The notes below the pieces were generated by a model. It was given only the letters and a program-made list of their open reading frames with translations. It made no database searches and was not told where the DNA came from. Positions 13,088-30,030 of a DNA stretch of 64,000 nt are shown piece by piece (the first letter of the stretch is position 1; the number at the start of each line of letters is the position of its first letter). The position numbers and the translations under genes were made by a program. Origin of the DNA: Halobaculum limi (lineage in GTDB: Archaea; Halobacteriota; Halobacteria; Halobacteriales; Haloferacaceae); NCBI RefSeq assembly GCF_029490015.1, contig NZ_CP120468.1:2108001-2172000 (forward strand). Reading direction: 5' to 3'.

Positions 13088-14104
13088 ATGACCGACGTAG
13101 TCGCCACCACACCGGGGCTGTATCCCCTCCCGGACTGGGCGAAAGAAGATCTCTCCGACTTGAAGGGCCACCAGAAACACGACCTCATCGACGGCGAGGA
13201 AGCGCCGGCGGTGGCGGACGTGTACGCCGACGTGCGCGCCGAGTTCGTCGCCGACCAGCAACACGCCGGCCTCGACCGCATCGTCGAGGGCCAAGGCCGC
13301 TGGGACGACATGCTCGCGCACCCGCTGACCGTCCACGAGAACGTCGAGACGGGCGGTATCGTTCGCTACTACGACAACAACAACTTCTACCGCGACCCGA
13401 AGGTCGTCGACGACCTCACGCCGTCGGGCGACGTGGCGTCGGAACTGAAGGCCGCGAGCGCCCTCCTCGCCGCCGACGAGTCGCTGCAAGCGACGCTCCC
13501 CGGCCCGTACACGCTCGCTGATCTGGCGACCGACGAGCACTACGGCGACGAAGCGGAGTTCCTCGACGCCGTCGGCGACTTCCTCGCGGGCGAGGTAGAG
13601 CAGTTCCCCGCTCACGAGACGCTGTTTCTGCTGGAACCCTCCTACGTGACGAACGCGCCCGGCGACGACCTGAACGAACTCGCCAGCGAGACCATCGACC
13701 GCGTCGCCGCGGCGACCGACGCCGACGTGGTCGTGCAGACGTACTGGGAGGCGTTCGAGGAGAAGGCGTACGCCCACCTGATGGACGCCGACGTCGACGC
13801 CGTCGGCTTCGACTTCGTCACCGCCGACCGCGCGGCGAACCTCGAGTGCATCAATGAACTCGGCACGACCGACGACGTCGCTCTCGGCCTCGTCGACGGG
13901 CAGAACACGCTCGTCGAAGACCCGGAGACGGTCGCAGAGCGCGTCGACTGGGTGCACGACCAGATTCCCGCCCAGTCGTTCGAGACGACGTACGTGACCA
14001 CGAACACCGAGACGTTCTATCTGCCAGTGAACAAACATCAGGCCAAACTCTACGTCCTCGCGGAGGCGGCCGACATCGCCGCCGCAGAGGAGGTGGAGGC
14101 GTGA
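13088..14104 (+). CDS. MetE-like protein without the zinc site (N-terminal-half homologue)
   Basis: This 338-residue protein is a TIM-barrel of the cobalamin-independent methionine synthase (MetE/UROD-like) superfamily. The zinc ligands found in the next gene (HVC and SPDC) are replaced here: the equivalent places read VVVQTYWEAF and TTNTETFYLP, with no Cys. This mirrors the N-terminal half of bacterial MetE, which has lost zinc and helps bind the folate substrate. Its stop overlaps the next start (GTGA). I infer that the two proteins act together as a split methionine synthase. Confidence 0.85.
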   Translation: MTDVVATTPGLYPLPDWAKEDLSDLKGHQKHDLIDGEEAPAVADVYADVRAEFVADQQHAGLDRIVEGQGRWDDMLAHPLTVHENVETGGIVRYYDNNNFYRDPKVVDDLTPSGDVASELKAASALLAADESLQATLPGPYTLADLATDEHYGDEAEFLDAVGDFLAGEVEQFPAHETLFLLEPSYVTNAPGDDLNELASETIDRVAAATDADVVVQTYWEAFEEKAYAHLMDADVDAVGFDFVTADRAANLECINELGTTDDVALGLVDGQNTLVEDPETVAERVDWVHDQIPAQSFETTYVTTNTETFYLPVNKHQAKLYVLAEAADIAAAEEVEA

Positions 14105-15183
14105 GCCGAAATCCCGCGAACCGCGAGCAGTTCCGCCCCGACGACCACGACAGCGACCACTTCCTGCTCACGACCGTCGTCGGGTCGTACCCCAAGCCGA
14201 AGTGGCTCAACCGCGCCCGCGACCACTTCGAGGACGACGACCACCCGTTCGGCGACAGCGAGTGGGAAGAGGCGACCGACGACGCCTGCCGCGTCATCAC
14301 GCACGAACACGAACGCGCGGGACTGGACACGGTCGTCGACGGCGAGATGCGCCGCGAGGAGATGGTCGAGTTCTTCGCCGAGCGTATCGACGGCTACGAG
14401 TTCAACGGCCCCGTGAAGGTGTGGGGCCACAACTACTTCGACAAGCCGTCGGTCGTTGAGGACGTCGAGTACGACGACCCGTGGCTGGTCGACGAGTTCG
14501 CCTTCACCGACGAGGTGGCAACTCGCCCGGTCAAAGTCCCGATCACCGGCCCGTACACGCTCGCCAACTGGGCGTTCAACGAGTCGTACGAGGACGATGA
14601 GGCGTTGGCGTACGACCTCGCAGACCTCGTGAACACCGAGATTGAGAAACTCGTCGAGGCGGGCGCTCGCTACATCCAGATCGACGAACCCGCGCTGGCG
14701 ACGACGCCGGACGACCACGCCATCGTCGGCGAGTGTCTCGAACGCATCGTCAGCGACATCGACGAGGACGTCCGCATCGGTCTCCACGTCTGCTATGGCG
14801 ACTACTCGCGCGTCTACCCCGAGATCAACGACTATCCGATCGACGAGTTCGACGTGGAACTGTGCAACGACGACTACGAACAGATCGAGACGTTCGCGGA
14901 CGGCGAGTTCGCGCCCGACCTCGCACTCGGCGTCGTCGACGCCCACGTCGCCGAGGTGGAGTCCGTTAAGGAGATCAAGGAGAACATCAAGCAGGGCCTG
15001 AAGGTCGTGCCGCCGGAGAAACTCACCGTCAGCCCCGACTGCGGGCTGAAACTCCTCCCGCGTGAGGCCGCCTACGGCAAGATGGAGAACCTCGTGCAGG
15101 CCGCTCGCGAGGTCGAACAAGAACTCGACGCCGGAACCATCGAGGTTCCCGCATTCGAAGACGCTGCCCCTGCAGACGACTAA
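14101..15183 (+). CDS. metE: Methionine synthase, MetE C-terminal catalytic type
   Basis: This 360-residue protein is the zinc-bearing catalytic half of cobalamin-independent methionine synthase: TTVVGSYPKPKWL at the start, His229 and Cys231 (LHVCYG), a DEPAL motif near residue 198, and Cys314 (SPDCGLKLLP) as the third zinc ligand. The enzyme transfers a methyl group to homocysteine. Start GTG at 14101 overlaps the upstream stop. Archaeal 'core' MetE proteins have this length, so it may take methyl groups from a corrinoid or folate donor different from bacterial MetE. Confidence 0.92.
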   Translation: MSRNPANREQFRPDDHDSDHFLLTTVVGSYPKPKWLNRARDHFEDDDHPFGDSEWEEATDDACRVITHEHERAGLDTVVDGEMRREEMVEFFAERIDGYEFNGPVKVWGHNYFDKPSVVEDVEYDDPWLVDEFAFTDEVATRPVKVPITGPYTLANWAFNESYEDDEALAYDLADLVNTEIEKLVEAGARYIQIDEPALATTPDDHAIVGECLERIVSDIDEDVRIGLHVCYGDYSRVYPEINDYPIDEFDVELCNDDYEQIETFADGEFAPDLALGVVDAHVAEVESVKEIKENIKQGLKVVPPEKLTVSPDCGLKLLPREAAYGKMENLVQAAREVEQELDAGTIEVPAFEDAAPADD

Positions 15184-17981: not shown

Positions 17982-19526
17982 ATGGACGACCGCATCGACG
18001 AACTCCGCGAGCGACGCGCCGAAGCAGAGCGGGGCGGCGGCGAAGACCGCATCGAACGCCAACACGAGAAGGGGAAGATGACCGCCCGCGAGCGCATCGA
18101 CTACTTCCTCGACGACGGCACCTTCCACGAGTTCGACCAGTTCCGAACCCACGACACCCACAAGTTCGGGATGGAGGGCAACCAGATATACGGCGACGGC
18201 GTCGTCACCGGCTACGGCGAGGTGAACGGCCGCAAGACGTTCGTATTCGCCCACGACTTCACCGTGTTCGGCGGGTCGCTCGGTGAGGTGTTCGCCGAGA
18301 AGGTGTGTAAGGTGATGGACAAGGCGATGGACGTCGGCGCGCCCGTCGTCGGCCTCAACGACTCCGCGGGTGCGCGCATCCAGGAGGGCGTCGGGTCGCT
18401 CGCCGGCTTCGCCGAAATCTTCCGCCGCAACACCGAGGCGTCGGGTGTCATCCCACAGCTGTCAGGGATTATGGGCCCGTGTGCGGGCGGTGCGGTGTAC
18501 TCCCCGGCTATCACGGACTTCACCTTCATGGTGAAGGAGACCAGCCACATGTTCATCACCGGCCCGGACGTCATCAAGACGGTCACGGGCGAGGAGGTGA
18601 GCTTCGAGGAACTCGGCGGCGCACAGACGCACGCGAGCACCTCCGGCGTCGCCCACTTCGCGGAAGATTCTGAGGAGGACGCGCTCGACCATATGCGCCG
18701 CCTGCTGTCGTATCTCCCGCAGAACAACGTCGAGGACCCGCCACGCGTCGACCCGTGGGACGACCCCGACCGCCGCGACGAGGAACTGAACCAGATCGTT
18801 CCCGACGAACCGCGCAAGCCGTACGACATCACGAACGTCGTCGACAGCGTCGTCGACGAAGGATCGTTCTTCGAGACGCACGAGGCGTTCGCGAAGAATA
18901 TCGTCACCGGGTTCGCCCGTCTCGACGGGCGCTCCATCGGCGTCGTCGCCAACCAGCCACGGGTGAACGCCGGGACGCTGGACATCGAGTCCTCCGAGAA
19001 GGGCGCACGCTTCGTCCGCTTCTGTGACGCGTTCAACATCCCCATCCTGACGTTCGTCGACGTGCCGGGCTTCATGCCCGGCACCGACCAAGAGCACAAC
19101 GGGATCATCCGCCACGGCGCGAAACTCCTGTACGCCTACTCAGAGGCGACCGTGCCGCTGCTCACCGTCATCACGCGCAAGGCGTACGGCGGCGCGTACG
19201 ACGTGATGGCCTCCAAGCACATCGGCGGCGACGTGAACTACGCGTGGCCGACCGCCGAAATCGCCGTGATGGGGCCGCAGGGCGCGGTGAACATCCTCTA
19301 CGACGACGAACTCGCCGACGCCGACGACCCCGACGAGAAGCGCCAGGAACTCATCGACGAGTATCGCGAGGAGTTCGCCAACCCCTACACCGCGGCGGAC
19401 AAGGGCTTCCTCGACGACGTGATCGAACCGACAGAGACGCGCCCCCGCCTCATCGACGACCTGGAGATGCTCTCCTCCAAGCGCGACGCCCAACCCGACA
19501 AGAAACACGGCAACATCCCGATCTGA
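17982..19526 (+). CDS. pccB: Acyl-CoA (propionyl-CoA) carboxylase carboxyltransferase subunit
   Basis: This ~514-residue biotin-dependent carboxyltransferase (PccB type) has a crotonase-like double domain: [34 protein letters not shown] and [12 protein letters not shown] in the N-half, and [13 protein letters not shown] and [14 protein letters not shown] in the C-half. It transfers the carboxyl group from biotin to propionyl- or acetyl-CoA. A GTG two codons upstream (17976) is an alternative start. The pccX gene follows after one base, and the biotin carboxylase/BCCP partner is at 22.8-24.6 kb. In haloarchaea the complex supports propionyl-CoA use and the methylaspartate cycle/PHBV metabolism. 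Confidence 0.95.
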
Positions 19527-19527
19527 G

Positions 19528-19833
19528 ATGGCGAGCGACGAGACAGACGACGACACGGCCGACCCCGCCGCCGCCGTCCTCGACCGCCTGACGCTGCCGG
19601 ACGACGCCGACGCGGAGGAGACAGCGGCCATCGTCGCCGCCGTCGGCGCACACGTCCGTGACAGCGAGGCCGCCGCGGCCGCGGCGGCCACCGACGACGG
19701 CGCTGAGACGTGGGACGGCAAGCGCTGGGCGTTCGCAGGCAGACTCGACGCGCTTCAGGGGCGGGCCGCACGCACTCCCGAGAACGCGCCGACGGACGCG
19801 TGGACCGCGAGCGGACGGACAGACCGCTTCTGA
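19528..19833 (+). CDS. pccX: Small carboxylase subunit, PccX-like
   Basis: This 101-residue acidic protein has an Ala/Asp-rich helical first half ([24 protein letters not shown]) and ends [15 protein letters not shown]...[12 protein letters not shown]. It starts 1 bp after pccB. The layout (helix, then W...GR...W-x-x-SGR) matches the haloarchaeal PccX small subunit reported as essential for propionyl-CoA carboxylase in Haloferax mediterranei, and is shaped like the epsilon subunit of actinobacterial acyl-CoA carboxylases. Likely role: bridge or stabiliser between the carboxyltransferase and the biotin-carrying subunit. Confidence 0.82.
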
Positions 19834-19840
19834 GCGGGCG

Positions 19841-21205
19841 CTATCGCGTTCGCACCCGAACGCGAAGTGGGTCACTCGGCCGGAGGGTCGCCGCCGCCTC
19901 GAATGACGGTTCGCCGGTGTCCGCCGGCACCGGTTCGACTGCCGTCTCCCGGAACACGACTGCGAGCACCGCGTGTAACTCCAGCGATGCGAACCGCATC
20001 CCGATGCAGTGGCGTGGGCCGGCCCCGAACGGGAGATACGCGTGTTCCGGGCGTTCGGGGTCGGCGGCGGTCCACCGATCCGGATCGAACACCTCCGGGT
20101 CGTCCCACCAGCGCGGGTCGGCGTGGAGCCGCCAGATCGGGATCGAGAGATTCGTCCCCTCGCGAACCCGGTAGCCACCGATCACCACGTCTTCGGTCGG
20201 CTGGCGGAACGTGACGTACGCGGGCGGGTGCGTCCTGAGTGTCTCCGAGACGACACGGTCGGTCAGGTCGAGACCGCGAAGTGTGGCTGCGTCGAGGCCG
20301 TCTGCTGCCGCGGCGGCGACCTCCTCGTGGAGGGCTGCCGCGACCGACGGGTGGCGAGCGAGCGCGTGCGTTCCGTACGCCAACGCGAGCGAGGTGGTTT
20401 CGTGGCCGGCGAACAGAAACGTCATCAATTGGTCGCGGACGGCAGCCTCCGAGAGCGAATCGTCCTCGCGGAGGGCGACCAGTAGCGTCAACAGATCGTC
20501 CGCGTCGCCCGGGTCGGCCCCACGGCGGTCGGCGACGAGGCCGTCGACGTACTCGCGGAAGGCGGCGGTGTCGCGGGCGAACCGACGGTTCGTCGGCGTC
20601 GGCACCCAGTCGGGGAGAAACGCCGATACCGAACCGGCGTCCGCACGCGCTTGCACGCTCCTCGTCGCCGACTTGATCACCTCGTATCCGTCGTCATCGC
20701 GCACGTCGACGCCGAACAGCGTCCGACCGAGAATCCGCATCGCCAGCGTCGAGTACGCGTCCACGAGGTCGATGACCTCGCCATCATCCCACGATGCGAC
20801 GAGGCGTTCGGCCTCCTCGACCATCGCGTCGGCGAACGCCTGGATCCGCTCGCGGTAGAACAGCGGTTGCAGTTGCGTCCGCTGTTCGCGCCACTCCTCG
20901 CCCTCTGTGAGCAGGAGACCGTTCTCCAAGAAGTCCACGCCGGAGCGCCGCTGTACGTCCGACTTGCGGAACCGATCGGCGTCGTCGACGAGGACACGCC
21001 GTACGTCGTCCGGGTGGAACAGCGCGACGTTCTCCCAGAGGCCGAAGTCGAACGCGACGACGTCGCCGTACTCGGAGACTCGGTCGTAGAACGAGAACGG
21101 ATCACGCACGAACCACGGGAGCGTTCCAACTGCGGGGAGGCCGTCGGGCCCCGGTGGCGGGGGTGCACTCGACGGGTCGGCGTCGAAGTCGCTCGTCGGT
21201 GTCAT
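19841..21205 (-). CDS. Cytochrome P450
   Basis: This 454-residue cytochrome P450 has all the hallmark elements: an I-helix FAGHETTS, the K-helix SETLRTHPP (ExxR), and the heme loop FGAGPRHCIGMRFA with the axial Cys at residue 400. There is no N-terminal membrane anchor, so it is soluble like bacterial CYPs. A signature PPPPGPDGLPAVGTLPW lies at the start. It converges with the pccBX transcript (7 bp between the stops). It is divergently transcribed from a Bat-type regulator across an 83-bp region with a palindromic TATA. Substrate unknown; haloarchaeal P450s are linked to carotenoid or fatty acid hydroxylation only by speculation. Confidence 0.93.
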   Translation of the reverse strand: MTPTSDFDADPSSAPPPPGPDGLPAVGTLPWFVRDPFSFYDRVSEYGDVVAFDFGLWENVALFHPDDVRRVLVDDADRFRKSDVQRRSGVDFLENGLLLTEGEEWREQRTQLQPLFYRERIQAFADAMVEEAERLVASWDDGEVIDLVDAYSTLAMRILGRTLFGVDVRDDDGYEVIKSATRSVQARADAGSVSAFLPDWVPTPTNRRFARDTAAFREYVDGLVADRRGADPGDADDLLTLLVALREDDSLSEAAVRDQLMTFLFAGHETTSLALAYGTHALARHPSVAAALHEEVAAAAADGLDAATLRGLDLTDRVVSETLRTHPPAYVTFRQPTEDVVIGGYRVREGTNLSIPIWRLHADPRWWDDPEVFDPDRWTAADPERPEHAYLPFGAGPRHCIGMRFASLELHAVLAVVFRETAVEPVPADTGEPSFEAAATLRPSDPLRVRVRTR

Positions 21206-21228
21206 ACCCGATCCTCGTCGTGCGTTCC

Positions 21229-21249
21229 TGTTCGAATTTAGCACGAACA
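21229..21249. promoter_or_regulatory. Inverted repeat at the P450 start region, possible operator
   Basis: TGTTCG and its complement CGAACA are separated by 9 bp. The repeat covers the expected transcription start of the P450 gene (about 25 bp from the TATA element at 21258). It shares the core GTTCGAA with the palindrome at 21277-21288. Confidence 0.35.
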
Positions 21250-21257
21250 GCGTCGCC

Positions 21258-21267
21258 TATTTAAATA
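21258..21267. promoter_or_regulatory. Palindromic bidirectional TATA element
   Basis: TATTTAAATA is a perfect 10-bp palindrome between two divergent genes. It is 27 bp from the regulator ATG (leaderless) and 57 bp from the P450 ATG, implying a leader of about 30 nt for the P450. One TATA could serve both directions. Confidence 0.55.
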
Positions 21268-21276
21268 AGGCCGACG

Positions 21277-21288
21277 CGGTTCGAACCG
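21277..21288. promoter_or_regulatory. 12-bp perfect palindrome before the Bat-type regulator
   Basis: CGGTTCGAACCG ends one base before the ATG at 21289. Position over the transcription start suggests an autoregulatory operator. It could equally be chance in a GC-rich genome, but the GTTCGAA core is repeated at 21230. Confidence 0.35.
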
Positions 21289-21951
21289 ATGCGGTACCTC
21301 GACGTGACCATCGACCAACCGCCCGAAAGCCGGCATCCGATGCAGCAGTTCATCGCCGAGACCGACGCCGTCGACCGGGAGGAACTGCTCGCGTGGCAAC
21401 GGGTACCCGAGCGCGACGTCGAGTACGCGCTGTTCTTCGTCGAGGGAGACGTCGACCGCTACCGGAAGGCCATAAGCACCGTCGACTCCGTCGCGGAGTT
21501 CCGGCTTGCACAGGTCGGCGACGACCGCTTCCACTCGTTCGTGGTTCAGGAGACGCGCCCGGCGGACGTAGCGTGGCGGGCGGCGTTCGCCGAACGAGGG
21601 CTCGTCGTGACGTTGCCCGTCAGCTACGACTCGGCGGGACGGATGCGTCTCCGGGTCGTCGGCTCGGCGGTGGCGCTGCGCGACGCGCTTGCGGACCTGC
21701 CGGAGGGGCTGACCCCGACGGTCCACAGCGTCGGCGAACTGGACCACCGCCTCGGGTCGGCGGTGTCGAGACTCACCGCCCGGCAGCGCGAGGTCCTGGC
21801 GGTCGCGTTCGACGCCGGCTACTACGAGGTACCTCGGGAGGCGTCGCTCGATTCAGTCGCGGATCGACTGGGGTGTGCCCGCGCGACTGCCTCCGCACAC
21901 CTCCGAAAAGCCGAACGAGCCCTCGTTGCCGACGCGCTCGGTGCCGAGTGA
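21289..21951 (+). CDS. Bat-type HTH-10 transcriptional regulator
   Basis: This 220-residue protein has an N-terminal BAT-like sensing region (about 1-155) and a C-terminal HTH-10 domain: LTARQREVLAVAFDAGYYEVPR, then SLDSVADRLGCARATASAHLRKAE. This is the family of the bacterio-opsin activator and many haloarchaeal regulators. No PAS or GAF domain is present, so its signal is unknown. It is divergent from the P450 gene with shared promoter elements, making that gene the likely target, together with autoregulation. Confidence 0.9.
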   Translation: MRYLDVTIDQPPESRHPMQQFIAETDAVDREELLAWQRVPERDVEYALFFVEGDVDRYRKAISTVDSVAEFRLAQVGDDRFHSFVVQETRPADVAWRAAFAERGLVVTLPVSYDSAGRMRLRVVGSAVALRDALADLPEGLTPTVHSVGELDHRLGSAVSRLTARQREVLAVAFDAGYYEVPREASLDSVADRLGCARATASAHLRKAERALVADALGAE

Positions 21952-21997
21952 ACTGCGGCCCGCTGTCACCGTCGCCGTTCGTTCTCGCAGTCGCCGC

Positions 21998-22666
21998 TCA
22001 GCGGCCCCCGTATTCGGGGTGGTCGACGAACACCCCATCGACGCCCACCTCGCGGAGTCGGTCGAACGGGTCTGCCGAACGGAGGGTCCAGGCGTTGACT
22101 TCGAGTCCGCGGTCGTGTGCCTGAGCGACCCGCTCCGGGTCCATAAGGACGACGTCGTAGTGTGGATGGACGTACTCGGCACCGAGTTCCGCTGCGAGCG
22201 TCAGCGTATCCGCCCAGCCGTCGGCGTCGGCGACGATCGGTGCCAAGGGTAGATCAGACGCCGCCATCTCCCGGAGCGCGGCCGCGGAGAACGACGAGAC
22301 GACCGTTTCGTTGTCGACGGCGTCCGCCGTCTCGGCGACCGCGTCCACCAGGCCCGTCGTCTTGAGTTCGACGTTGACCGTCGCGTCCGACGGGACGGAG
22401 ATGAACGCCTCCGGGAGCGTCGGCACCCGTTCGTCGGAGTCATCCACTCGCAGGGCTCGAATCTGTGCGAGGCTGGTCTCGTCCACGCGGGCGTCGACGC
22501 CGAGGAGTCGGTCGAGCGTCTCGTCGTGGAAGACGATCGGTTCGCCCGACCCGCACCGGCGGACGTCGAACTCGACCCAGTCACACCGGCCGCTCGCGTT
22601 CCGGAAGGCGGCGACGGTGTTCTCGGGGTACAGGTCCGGACACCCGCGGTGGGCGATCACGCGCAC
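21998..22666 (-). CDS. Glycerophosphodiester phosphodiesterase
   Basis: This 222-residue protein is a GDPD-family TIM barrel. It has the catalytic layout IAHRGCPDLYPENT (His-Arg near the start and Glu-Asn), EFDVRR (Glu and Asp metal ligands) and VFHDETLDR (second His). The family hydrolyses glycerophosphodiesters into glycerol-3-phosphate and an alcohol, salvaging lipid head groups. There is no signal peptide, so it is cytosolic. I start at the GTG at 22666, three codons before IAHRG; longer frames upstream add residues atypical for the family. Confidence 0.9.
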   Translation of the reverse strand: MRVIAHRGCPDLYPENTVAAFRNASGRCDWVEFDVRRCGSGEPIVFHDETLDRLLGVDARVDETSLAQIRALRVDDSDERVPTLPEAFISVPSDATVNVELKTTGLVDAVAETADAVDNETVVSSFSAAALREMAASDLPLAPIVADADGWADTLTLAAELGAEYVHPHYDVVLMDPERVAQAHDRGLEVNAWTLRSADPFDRLREVGVDGVFVDHPEYGGR

Positions 22667-22785
22667 AGGTACGACTAGTCTCTGACTGGTATGTAACTGT
22701 ACGCCCGCAACCGCTGGTCGGTATGATGATCGACCGTTCGGAACCGACGGTTTGAGTAGTGGGCCTGCGGAACACCCTCCCAAGA

Positions 22786-24636
<1,851 letters not shown>

Positions 24637-26423: not shown

Positions 26424-26618
26424 TTACGCCGCGGCCGCAGCGCTGGCCTTCTTTCGCGTGATGTAGCCTGCGATGCGGTTGCGAACCCCCTTCGACTCGA
26501 CGTTGGTCAGTTTCTCGACGTTCTCCTTGTTCGTCTCGAAGTCCGTGTTGAACGAGTCGGGGTACTTCTCCAGCAGCAGGGTGGCGAGCTGCTTGACGTA
26601 CTTGGGTTTGATAGCCAT
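26424..26618 (-). CDS. rps17e: 30S ribosomal protein S17e
   Basis: This 64-residue protein is archaeal eS17: MAIKPKYVKQLATLLLEKYP, then the conserved core ENVEKLTNVESKGVRNRIAGYITRK. It is part of the small ribosomal subunit; the archaeal form lacks the C-terminal tail of the eukaryotic protein. A TATA-like CTTTTAG about 28 bp upstream of the ATG gives it its own promoter, separate from the cofD operon that ends 67 bp before it. Confidence 0.96.
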   Translation of the reverse strand: MAIKPKYVKQLATLLLEKYPDSFNTDFETNKENVEKLTNVESKGVRNRIAGYITRKKASAAAAA

Positions 26619-26640
26619 AGTGGGCAGTACACGAAACGCG

Positions 26641-26685: not shown

Positions 26686-27333
26686 TCACCGCTCGTCGCC
26701 GTCGACGTACTCGCGCCACCCACTCACCTCGGTCAGCGTCGCGAACGCCTCACGTTCTGCGGGCCCGCCACAGCGGTCGACCACGTCCGCGAAGTACGCC
26801 AGTCTGTCGAGCAGTATCTCGGTGTCGTACGTGGGGACGTCGAGGCGCGAGGCAGCGACCGTCGCGTCGACGACCGCGCCGAAGCCGCGATTGATCGTCC
26901 GCACGCCGGTTCGCTCCACGGCCGATTCTTGGACGTGGAGGTGCCAGTCGACCCACTGTGTCCCGCCGCGCTCACCAGACGCGACGCGCTCGGCGTCGAC
27001 CTCCGCCCACGCGTCCGCGGAGTCGAGCACCGGTGTGTCCTCCTCGCGAACCGTCACGGCGGCGTCGACGAACTCGCGCGGGTCGGTCGGGAACTGGACG
27101 ACGCCGCCGCCGCGCTCACGGAAGTTACGCCAGGTCCGGGTGCGCCCCCACGTCCGAGCGCGGACGGGCGCGTCGGCGGGCCTGTCCTCGTGTTCGGGCG
27201 CGTGTAAGCCCAGTGCGGCGATATTCCAGCGGTCGTTCGGCCCGAACGTCGCCACCACCGACTCGGTGACGCCGCGCAGTGCCACTGGCCACTCGGTCGA
27301 TTTCCCGCCGTCGTCTCGGGCGTCGTCGCTCAC
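26686..27333 (-). CDS. DUF447 flavin-like split-barrel protein
   Basis: This 215-residue protein matches the archaeal DUF447 family (a flavin-reductase-like split barrel): GVTESVVATFGPNDRWNIAALGLH at the start, RARTWGRTRTWRNF, VVQFPTDPREFVDAAVT, and the later RGFGAVVDATVAAS. Structures of DUF447 members hold FMN, but the reaction is not established to my knowledge. It starts at a GTG overlapping the CitG-like stop (GTGA), making it the last gene of the cofD operon. Confidence 0.88.
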   Translation of the reverse strand: MSDDARDDGGKSTEWPVALRGVTESVVATFGPNDRWNIAALGLHAPEHEDRPADAPVRARTWGRTRTWRNFRERGGGVVQFPTDPREFVDAAVTVREEDTPVLDSADAWAEVDAERVASGERGGTQWVDWHLHVQESAVERTGVRTINRGFGAVVDATVAASRLDVPTYDTEILLDRLAYFADVVDRCGGPAEREAFATLTEVSGWREYVDGDER

Positions 27334-28211
27334 ACGTCCACCCCGCGTTCGAGTGCGACGAACAGCGCTGCCGCCGTCAGGTCGGCGGTCGTCCCCGGGT
27401 TGATGCCGCGGTCGACCAACTCCGCGGCCCACTCCTCTGCCGCCGCGAGCGAGTCGACACTTGCGGCCCGGTCGCACACTTCGCGTGCGACTTCCCGGCC
27501 GTGGTTGGTCGCGACGAGCGTGTCGGGTTCCTCCGCGAGTAACTCGAGGAACGCGCGCGCGGCACGGTCGGCAATCGGCCCCTCGTCGGCACGAATTGCC
27601 TCGGCCGCGCGGAACGTTCGAGGGAACCCATCGACCCACTCGCGGGCGTTCGCGTCGCTCCCGTGTCCGTCGCCGGGAGACGCCGACGCCTCCATCACGT
27701 CGAACAGCGTGAGATCACACTCGCGGAGCGTCGGCACCGCGTCCGCGCCGCGGCGCACGTCGAGGGCATCCATCTCCTCGGGCGGGTCGGCCACCGCAAC
27801 GTCGACGTGTTCGAACGCGCGGTAGAAGCCGGCGGCGTCGTCGACGGTCGTCGCTTCGCACACCTCACGAACTCCCTCGCGTGTACAGTCGCCGGCGGCG
27901 GCCGCGCGGACGAGCGGAATCAGCAACAGGAGACAGCCGAACTGCGTGTTGCCACCAGACTGCTGGCTCATCCCCGCGACGGCCGTCTCGAACGCCTCGC
28001 CAACCGGGTCGCCCGCGGCGGCGCGGTCGAGGCCCAGTCGCGCTCCCACCGCCCCCGCGAGGAAGTGTTCGAATCGGAGGTCGGCGAGGTCGCGGTGGCG
28101 GTCGACGTTCCCCGGCTTGGGCGTTCCAGCGACCTCCAACAGGAGGGCGAGTTCGGCGTTCGCCGCCGGGCCCCGTTCGGGCAGTTCGTGGGTCGGAGCT
28201 TGGTCCGTCAC
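27330..28211 (-). CDS. CitG-like (triphosphoribosyl-dephospho-CoA synthase family) protein
   Basis: This 293-residue helical protein belongs to the CitG/MdcB family: EVAGTPKPGNVDRHRDLADLRFEHF at the start, MSQQSGGNTQFGCLLLLIPL in the middle, and ATNHGREVA and DRGINPGTTADLTAA near the end. CitG makes the prosthetic group of citrate lyase in bacteria, but a haloarchaeon with no citrate lyase here points to another phosphoribosyl-type transfer. Overlapping frames with the Dus-like gene (GTGA) upstream and DUF447 (GTGA) downstream show one translation unit with cofD. Archaeal CitG-like and DUF447 genes tend to occur with pterin/deazaflavin cofactor genes; that is from memory. Confidence 0.88.
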   Translation of the reverse strand: MTDQAPTHELPERGPAANAELALLLEVAGTPKPGNVDRHRDLADLRFEHFLAGAVGARLGLDRAAAGDPVGEAFETAVAGMSQQSGGNTQFGCLLLLIPLVRAAAAGDCTREGVREVCEATTVDDAAGFYRAFEHVDVAVADPPEEMDALDVRRGADAVPTLRECDLTLFDVMEASASPGDGHGSDANAREWVDGFPRTFRAAEAIRADEGPIADRAARAFLELLAEEPDTLVATNHGREVAREVCDRAASVDSLAAAEEWAAELVDRGINPGTTADLTAAALFVALERGVDV

Positions 28212-29041
28212 TGCGACACCTCCGTCGGCGCTGCCGTCGTATCCTCGTCGCTGGCGGCGTCGTCTGTCCACTCCGCGACCGCGTCGGCGACGCGCGCGAG
28301 GACGCGCGGGTCGTCGCTCGGCCGACCGACGCTCACCGCGTCCGCGCCTGCAGCGAGGTACTCCCGGACCGTCGCACGGTCGCGGACGCCGTTGTTGGCG
28401 ACGACGACGAGACCGGGTGCTGCCGCCTTCACTGCGCCGACGACGCCCTCGCTGTCCATCGCGTCGACGTGTATCGCGTCACCGCCAGCGTCACGCAGTG
28501 CGCGTGCAGTCTCTCGGAGATCGACGCCGTCCACCTCCGCACGCACTTTCACGGACACGTCCGCGCCCGCGTCTGCAGCCACGGCGACGTACTCGCACAG
28601 GCGGTCGGTGTCGCGCAGGAGCGACTCGCCACAGCCGACTTCGCACAGTTCCGCCTGTCTGCAGTGTGCGTTCACTTCGAGGATCGCACCGTGGTCGCCA
28701 CAGACCCTCGCGGCCGCTCGGATGGCGGCGACGCTCGTCGCGCGGACGTTGACACCCACACGGAGGTTCACGTCGGCGAGCGTGGTCAGTTGCGCGTCCA
28801 TCCACGCGAACGGGTCGTCGGGGAGGAACTCCGAGCGGTCGCGGTCGCGGACGGTCGCGCGGGCGGCCGCTCTACTCCGCTCGTCCAGCGCGATTCCGCC
28901 GATGAACGCCGCGCCCGCGAACTCGGCCCCGCGCACGGCCCACTCGGCGTCGGCCTCGCCGGAGAGACTCGCCAGCGCGAGTGGCGGATCGATTGCGAGG
29001 TCGGCCGCAGTCGCGCGCAACTCGTCCTCGCCGTCGGTCAC
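28208..29041 (-). CDS. Dihydrouridine-synthase-like flavin TIM-barrel protein
   Basis: This 277-residue protein is a Dus/dihydroorotate dehydrogenase-like barrel: [92 protein letters not shown]. The FMN-phosphate site at the last two strands is recognisable. Compared with true Dus proteins, the Cys/Glu-rich loop ([13 protein letters not shown]) differs, so a tRNA substrate is not certain. It overlaps cofD by 4 bp upstream (GTGA) and the CitG-like gene downstream. A cofactor-related reductase is an equally good guess. Confidence 0.8.
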
Positions 29042-30030
29042 TCGGCCACCTCCAGCGCCCGTCGACACGCGCGGGCGACGCGTTCGGCGTCGGCGGCGTC
29101 GTCGATGCGGGTGTCCGTCCGCACGGTCGGTCGGTCGAGGTTGGTTCCGTCCTCGTCGTCGAGGACGAACGCGTCGGCGAACGGGTAAGCGTCGGCGACG
29201 CCCGCGGTCGAGGGGTCGCGGCCGACGCCGCGCATCAGGTCGGCGGCGGGCCCGGAGAACACTCGATCCTCGACGAACGGCGAGACGGCGACCACCGTCG
29301 TCTCGTGAAGTGCCTCGCGCACGCCGTCGAGTGCGAGCATCGGGCCGATGCTGGTGACAGGGTTGGAGGGACCGATCACCACGTCGTCTGTCAGGGCGTC
29401 GCGGACGGCGTCGGTCGGGGATGCGTCGTCGCCGCCGCGGAACTCCACGTCTTCGACGCCCGGCTCTGCGCGATTCGCGACCCAGTACTCCTGAAAGTGC
29501 ATCGACCCGTCTTCGGTGTGGACGATGGTCGCCACGGGGTCGTCGCTCATCGGGATCAGGTCGATATCGAGGTCGAACGCCTCGGCGAGCGTCCGGGTGA
29601 CCTCGGTGAGCGTGTACCCCTCGTCGAGGAGTGAGGTTCGGGTGACGTGGACCGCGCGGTCGCGGTCGCCGATCTGCATAAACTCCGCGACGCCAGAGAA
29701 GCGCCGCCAGCGAGCGATGTCGCGGCCGGCGGTCTGGGCGTCGTCTGCGAGGTAGCGCGGGCCGCCGTCGAGACCAGCGGCGTCGGCCAACGCCATCAGT
29801 TCCTCGTGGGTCTCGGTGGTGTCGTCGGCGATGCCCCACCAGCGCTCGCGGTCGATGACGCCGCCGCCGTGAAAGAGGACGGTGTCGACGTCGGGGCACA
29901 CGAGGTGGCCGCCGAGTTCGACGTCGTCGCCGGTGTTGCCGACGACGGTCGTCGACTCGGGAGCGAACACGTCGGCGGCACCGTCGAGGAGTTTGGGCGT
30001 GCCGGTGCCGCCGGCGAGGAACGTAACCAT
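29038..30030 (-). CDS. cofD: 2-phospho-L-lactate transferase CofD (F420 synthesis)
   Basis: This 330-residue protein starts [17 protein letters not shown] and has the CofD landmarks [20 protein letters not shown] and [15 protein letters not shown]. CofD joins the activated lactyl-phosphate/PEP group to Fo (7,8-didemethyl-8-hydroxy-5-deazaflavin) to give F420-0 or its dehydro form. It heads a tightly overlapped operon with the Dus-like, CitG-like and DUF447 genes. Haloarchaea use F420 in several reductases, including glucose-6-phosphate and nitro/redox enzymes. Confidence 0.95.

Follow-up and report, generated by a model that had tools for sequence, protein, structure and literature searches.

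In the biosynthesis of tetrahydromethanopterin (H4MPT) by archaea, the first committed enzyme is MptG, the synthase for beta-ribofuranosylaminobenzene phosphate (beta-RFA-phosphate). The last enzyme in methanogens is DmrX, a dihydromethanopterin reductase. To our knowledge, no enzyme has been assigned to the reductive step after MptG, in which the ribofuranose ring is opened to ribitol, or to the alpha-ribosyl transfer. The ribitol of methanopterin bears the alpha-ribosyl group. CitG proteins form an alpha bond between a ribosyl group, derived from adenosine triphosphate (ATP), and a hydroxyl. We know of no CitG or DUF447 protein among the named enzymes of the pathway. Here we describe a four-gene unit, encoding CofD, Dus-like, CitG and DUF447 proteins, in a 64,000-nucleotide window of the Halobaculum limi genome (contig NZ_CP120468.1). 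We think it fairly probable that the CitG and DUF447 proteins help to make a methanopterin-type methyl carrier that is loaded by the coenzyme F420-dependent enzyme Mer and used by the methionine synthase MetE.

In methylotrophic proteobacteria, archaeal-like H4MPT genes form the clusters mch-orf5-orf7-fae-orf17 and orf19-orf20-afpA-orf21-orf22. Mutants in the cluster reportedly lacked the cofactor. If so, part of the connection of bacterial CitG and DUF447 with methanopterin has been established before, and what is new lies on the side of haloarchaea and methionine. All of the cluster genes have been reported as essential on methanol (PMC8141765). By gene order, CitG falls at Orf7 and DUF447 within the orf19-orf22 block. 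However, the bacterial carrier serves formaldehyde oxidation, whereas the haloarchaeal genes go with Mer and MetE. Most Halobacteria are reported to rely on a split MetE as their only methionine synthase (Price et al., 2021, PMC7857596). That work left the methyl donor open, predicting methyl-tetrahydrofolate or another methyl pterin. We propose this enzyme as the carrier user; its linkage with MptG, DUF447, CitG and Mer argues for a donor of the methanopterin type. The comparison with archaeal H4MPT synthesis is mixed. CitG-DUF447 pairs adjoin DmrX in methanogens and their relatives, and the haloarchaeal MptG homologue exceeds its subfamily cut-off. Conversely, haloarchaea lack DmrX and their MptG is divergent.

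The unit spans positions 26686 to 30030 of the window. A preliminary description of this DNA gave the same coordinates and GTGA junctions, and these match the sequence. The features are as follows.

29038 to 30030, minus strand: cofD, 2-phospho-L-lactate transferase of coenzyme F420 synthesis, 330 amino acids (TIGR01819, 386 bits; curated equivalog cut-off 257.45)
28208 to 29041, minus strand: Dus-like flavin TIM barrel of an MJ0144-like family, 277 amino acids (Pfam Dus 32.7; cut-off 20.4)
27330 to 28211, minus strand: CitG-family protein of the methanopterin-cluster kind, candidate ribosyl transferase, 293 amino acids (PF01874, 218 bits across the whole domain; cut-off 27)
26686 to 27333, minus strand: DUF447 protein with an FMN (flavin mononucleotide) split-barrel fold, candidate FMN-dependent reductase, 215 amino acids (PF04289, DUF447_N, 68.9, cut-off 24; PF20766, DUF447_C, 64.4, cut-off 24.8)
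29038 to 29041, 28208 to 28211 and 27330 to 27333, minus strand: three 4-bp GTGA overlaps (translational coupling)

At each overlap, the GTG start of the downstream gene sits within the end of the gene upstream. The profile scores bear out the four family names proposed previously. The Dus-like protein does fall below the cut-off of the MJ0144-type model (TIGR00736, 120.6 versus 218.7 bits). Its NAHCRQ cysteine, which we take from the Dus motif to be catalytic, is kept in seven of seven aligned homologues.

The presence of DUF447 coincides with that of MptG. DUF447 was undetected in 8 of 391 haloarchaea, which belong to four groups: G329, G392 and G439 (genus g3), G414 and G449 (g87), G008 and G049 (g7) and G104 (g9). 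These were set beside 32 comparison genomes. A homologue of MptG was found in none of the eight and in all 32 (Fisher p = 1.3e-8, kinship ignored), and DUF447 presence thus agrees with MptG in 40 of 40 genomes. CitG was missing from all eight genomes without MptG and present in 29 of the 32 with it. The three others are further g3 genomes that retain DUF447 and MptG. Within the 40 genomes, CitG was never seen without MptG and DUF447. Since CitG alone can be lost, it is CitG that depends on DUF447 and MptG, a one-way relation that a later step would show. Because the genomes are related, we count at least four independent events of co-loss and not eight. In the window's own genome (G000), the MptG homologue is encoded away from the unit (G000:C1:986594-987538) and scores 145 bits with TIGR00144, above the subfamily cut-off of 113.5. 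We refer to MptG, DUF447 and CitG together as the trio.

The unit behaves as two modules, cofD-Dus and CitG-DUF447. We drew 147 Halobacteriota genomes, in which 25 haloarchaea carry the genes. All four genes occur in the window order in 22 of these (two with a spacer of ~1 kb), an order that exceeds chance. Of the remaining three, the Dus-like gene is missing from the first, cofD lies elsewhere in the second and the pairs are ~5 kb apart in the third. In G032, cofD-Dus and CitG-DUF447 are ~5 kb apart on opposite strands. The only haloarchaea of the draw without DUF447 were G008, G049 and G104. CitG and MptG are also absent from these genomes, and cofD and the Dus-like gene are retained in all three. 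Single absences of DUF447, CitG and MptG were seen in 2, 3 and 1 further genomes, respectively. All are non-haloarchaeal and, with one exception, they are drafts of 91-93% completeness. In G104, cofD-Dus is followed directly by the two genes found behind DUF447 in its congener G025. Hence, G104 lost only CitG-DUF447 from an otherwise intact locus. Conversely, G017, G010 and G019 have cofD-CitG-DUF447 and no Dus-like gene. Since cofD-Dus can outlast CitG-DUF447, and CitG-DUF447 can occur with no Dus-like gene, we reject a single four-gene pathway, as considered in the preliminary description. The co-occurrence profiling suggested there ties CitG to DUF447 and leaves cofD and the Dus-like gene aside. 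The latter is probably a passenger beside cofD with a separate function.

A DUF763 gene lies between cofD and CitG in some lineages (L043, 5929-7694; L044, 7828-8688), and L043 also has a YfcE-like phosphodiesterase gene there. Non-haloarchaeal Dus-like genes beside CitG encode an extra C-terminal part (L041, 7305-8447; L038, 7574-8680; L046, 7949-9058), which in L041 matches the methanogenesis marker 9 domain (TIGR03277, 174 bits). The haloarchaeal proteins are without it.

In some haloarchaea, the genes are assembled with those for methionine synthesis. G466 has one contiguous CitG-DUF447-MptG operon and G333 has two, each head-to-head with the metE-N/metE-C pair. This operon was seen in one haloarchaeal genus. 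The two copies of the block in G333 (L075 and L076) are accompanied by a third MetE pair. The arrangement mer-DUF447-mptG-metE-N-metE-C occurs in G330 and G427, both g3 genomes without CitG, and mer-DUF447-mptG occurs in G382. The mer products of these operons score 435-448 bits (NF002619, cut-off 276). The operon contig of G427, Halobellus limi, matches plasmid NZ_CP031312.1 across the stretch compared. In the plasmid, npdG (F420 reductase in RefSeq) is divergently upstream of mer-DUF447-mptG-metE-N-metE-C. The block (18369-24005; locus L277, 5170-10806) is a movable methionine cassette. A second MetE pair of Halobellus limi sits on a different contig. CitG-DUF447 is apart from cofD in G032, G466 and G333, as is DUF447 in G330 and G427. 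Since the CitG and DUF447 genes travel with methionine-synthesis genes, a second, non-folate methyl carrier is suggested.

The association with methanopterin genes extends to other lineages. G113, taken as Methanosarcina-like, and its relatives have CitG-DUF447-DmrX, with DmrX above its cut-off (TIGR02700, 323-328 bits), and G001 has cofD-Dus-CitG-DUF447-DmrX. Planctomycetes carry H4MPT genes (PMC5020050). In 62 of the best 80 planctomycete loci, MptG is directly behind DUF447, and in Lacipirellula genes for a dihydropteroate synthase-like protein, pabB and pabA precede DUF447-MptG. DUF447 and MptG are fused in one 529-amino acid frame of a planctomycete metagenome-assembled genome (L163, 7998-9587). 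As a single case, this might be an assembly error. On proteobacterial plasmids, CitG and DUF447 are found inside H4MPT/methylofuran clusters (mptG-mtdB-mch-fae-fhc), and F420 genes are missing from the annotated parts of these clusters. The plasmid matches of CitG are from rhizobia and Paraburkholderia, with DUF447 also aboard in most of the matches listed. The CitG proteins of the window and of Phyllobacterium share ~30% identity (E 5e-14). The Phyllobacterium order, mch-RimK-CitG-fae, was not found around haloarchaeal CitG. It corresponds to the Methylosinus order mch-orf5-orf7-fae (PMC3615186), so that by gene order CitG takes the Orf7 position. Taken together, these observations support a link of CitG and DUF447 to a pterin cofactor of the methanopterin type. 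Of the pterin- or deazaflavin-linked cofactor envisaged in the preliminary description, a link to a pterin is supported, since CitG and DUF447 track MptG and sit in methanopterin clusters, and modification of F420 is not. The literature that we searched contained no link between DUF447 and methanopterin; a 2026 paper offers a guess for DUF447 involving cannulae.

The window also encodes a split methionine synthase, which is not adjacent to the unit. Its ends, taken from matches, are approximate.

13094 to 14080, plus strand: metE-N, N-terminal half of the split methionine synthase
14107 to 15147, plus strand: metE-C, C-terminal half

The two halves have 56% and 73% identity to the trio-linked MetE halves of G466. 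We compared 54 trio-positive genomes, including the three g3 genomes without CitG, with the eight trio-negative ones. Every one of the 54 has the MetE pair, whereas five of the eight have lost it or have it in altered form (p = 8.7e-6, kinship ignored). Four of these have a divergent C-half alone and G104 has an N-half alone. The lone half of G104 has 43% identity (L086, 9049-9981). In the complete chromosome of G049, we found no Mer (best E 0.1), MetE-N, MptG, CitG or DUF447. The same chromosome has cofD, Dus, Mch and PabA/B homologues.

The AlphaFold2 model of DUF447 (mean pLDDT confidence score 83) matches four solved relatives, three of which (2iml, 2nr4 and 2ptf) are titled as FMN-bound. 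More distant matches are flavin reductases. With its FMN-type fold and its coupling, or in one case fusion, to MptG, DUF447 is a natural candidate for the ring opening, and we propose it as an FMN-dependent reductase acting next to the MptG step. For CitG, the family chemistry points to a ribosyl transferase. The co-loss, operon linkage, gene fusion and FMN-type fold that we observe could be joined as follows. A tetrahydromethanopterin-like one-carbon carrier would exist beside folate, its ribosyl-aryl portion being made by the MptG homologue, DUF447 and CitG. MptG would make beta-RFA-phosphate. DUF447, with FMN, might then reductively open its ribofuranose ring to ribitol, an assignment that we make tentatively. 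With similar caution, CitG may take the ribosyl group from a beta-nucleotide, for instance ATP, and attach it in alpha linkage, inverting the configuration as in a CitG-like transfer. The role of cofD would be to make F420, needed by Mer for conversion of the methylene-carrier to the methyl-carrier, and the split MetE would hand the methyl group to homocysteine. In its widest form, the proposal is that most haloarchaea keep a methanopterin-type carrier dedicated to methionine, plasmid-movable in Halobellus, and that DUF447 and CitG are the two missing enzymes of methanopterin synthesis. We consider this rather doubtful.

Several observations weigh against the carrier. Haloarchaea are held to use tetrahydrofolate, with methanopterin-specific enzymes absent (PMC8305020). 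Three g3 genomes (G329, G392 and G439) retain the MetE pair without the trio. This is a real exception, and the MetE of these genomes can thus use something else. Loss of Mer was examined in one trio-negative genome, G049. Among 28 haloarchaea tested, all have Mch, trio-negative genomes included, so Mch can function without the proposed carrier. Mch was accordingly ruled out as a carrier-dependent gene. In the same 28 genomes, DmrX is absent, with no match near the cut-off. The MptG homologue is divergent, scoring 145 bits in G000 versus 300-550 in most methanogens, and in an MptG tree the haloarchaeal sequences group as a single clade, but its branch is long and the deep nodes are weakly supported. 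Hence, its orthology is unsure. Given the absence of DmrX and the behaviour of Mch, the carrier may differ from methanopterin proper, and other reactions probably run on folate.

The same observations would fit recruitment of the trio, as leftovers of methanopterin synthesis, for making or trimming a derivative of folate whose aryl side chain might, for example, be ribosylated or otherwise altered, and which Mer and MetE would use. The reported use of folate, the presence of Mch in every genome tested, the lack of DmrX, the divergence of MptG and the pabA/pabB homologues of G049 all accord with this. However, haloarchaeal MptG keeps many of the residues that are invariant in methanogen MptG, the operons showed no folate-specific gene, and the trio not only neighbours the Mer and MetE genes but was also lost with Mer and MetE-N in G049. 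We consider a folate derivative unlikely, though the strongest of the alternatives. Inherited operon order, with co-loss through genome reduction or lifestyle, is another account. The genomes are related and three of the eight trio-negative ones are small (2.1-2.4 Mb). The other five measure 3.2-3.9 Mb, though, and the G104 locus is intact apart from the missing pair. Moreover, the same genes have been assembled into new operons, one of them on a plasmid, and the bacterial linkage is independent. Such an origin is quite improbable.

The position of cofD ahead of CitG-DUF447, in nearly all sampled haloarchaea and in G001, G010 and G019, invites the idea that coenzyme F420, or a deazaflavin, is what the CitG and DUF447 proteins modify. 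Retention of cofD in the three trio-negative genomes of the draw, the separation of the genes from cofD in the five genomes named above and the occurrence of CitG and DUF447 in proteobacterial H4MPT clusters that have no annotated F420 gene close by make this very improbable. We give least credence to CitG being a true triphosphoribosyl-dephospho-coenzyme A synthase for an acyl-carrier lyase, with DUF447 an unrelated flavoprotein. The window protein matches the Pfam CitG domain in full, as the CitG and MdcB synthases do, but scores far below their equivalog cut-offs (NCBIfam CitG, 18.8 versus 272.3 bits; MdcB, 25.8 versus 282.35). It also keeps other genomic company; its gene's co-losses and neighbours are those of methanopterin genes.

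If the methanopterin-type carrier exists, annotation of Mer, MptG, CitG, DUF447 and MetE would change across the haloarchaeal class. The question of the split MetE methyl donor could then be put to the test in Haloferax volcanii, a host well suited to genetics, in which mptG is HVO_2628 and mer is HVO_1937. DUF447 and CitG are concrete candidates for two steps of a pathway that is central to methanogenesis.

Directly downstream of DUF447, a gene at 26429-26620 of the window (minus strand) reads as ribosomal protein S17e. S17e is likewise annotated after DUF447 on a Natrinema plasmid.

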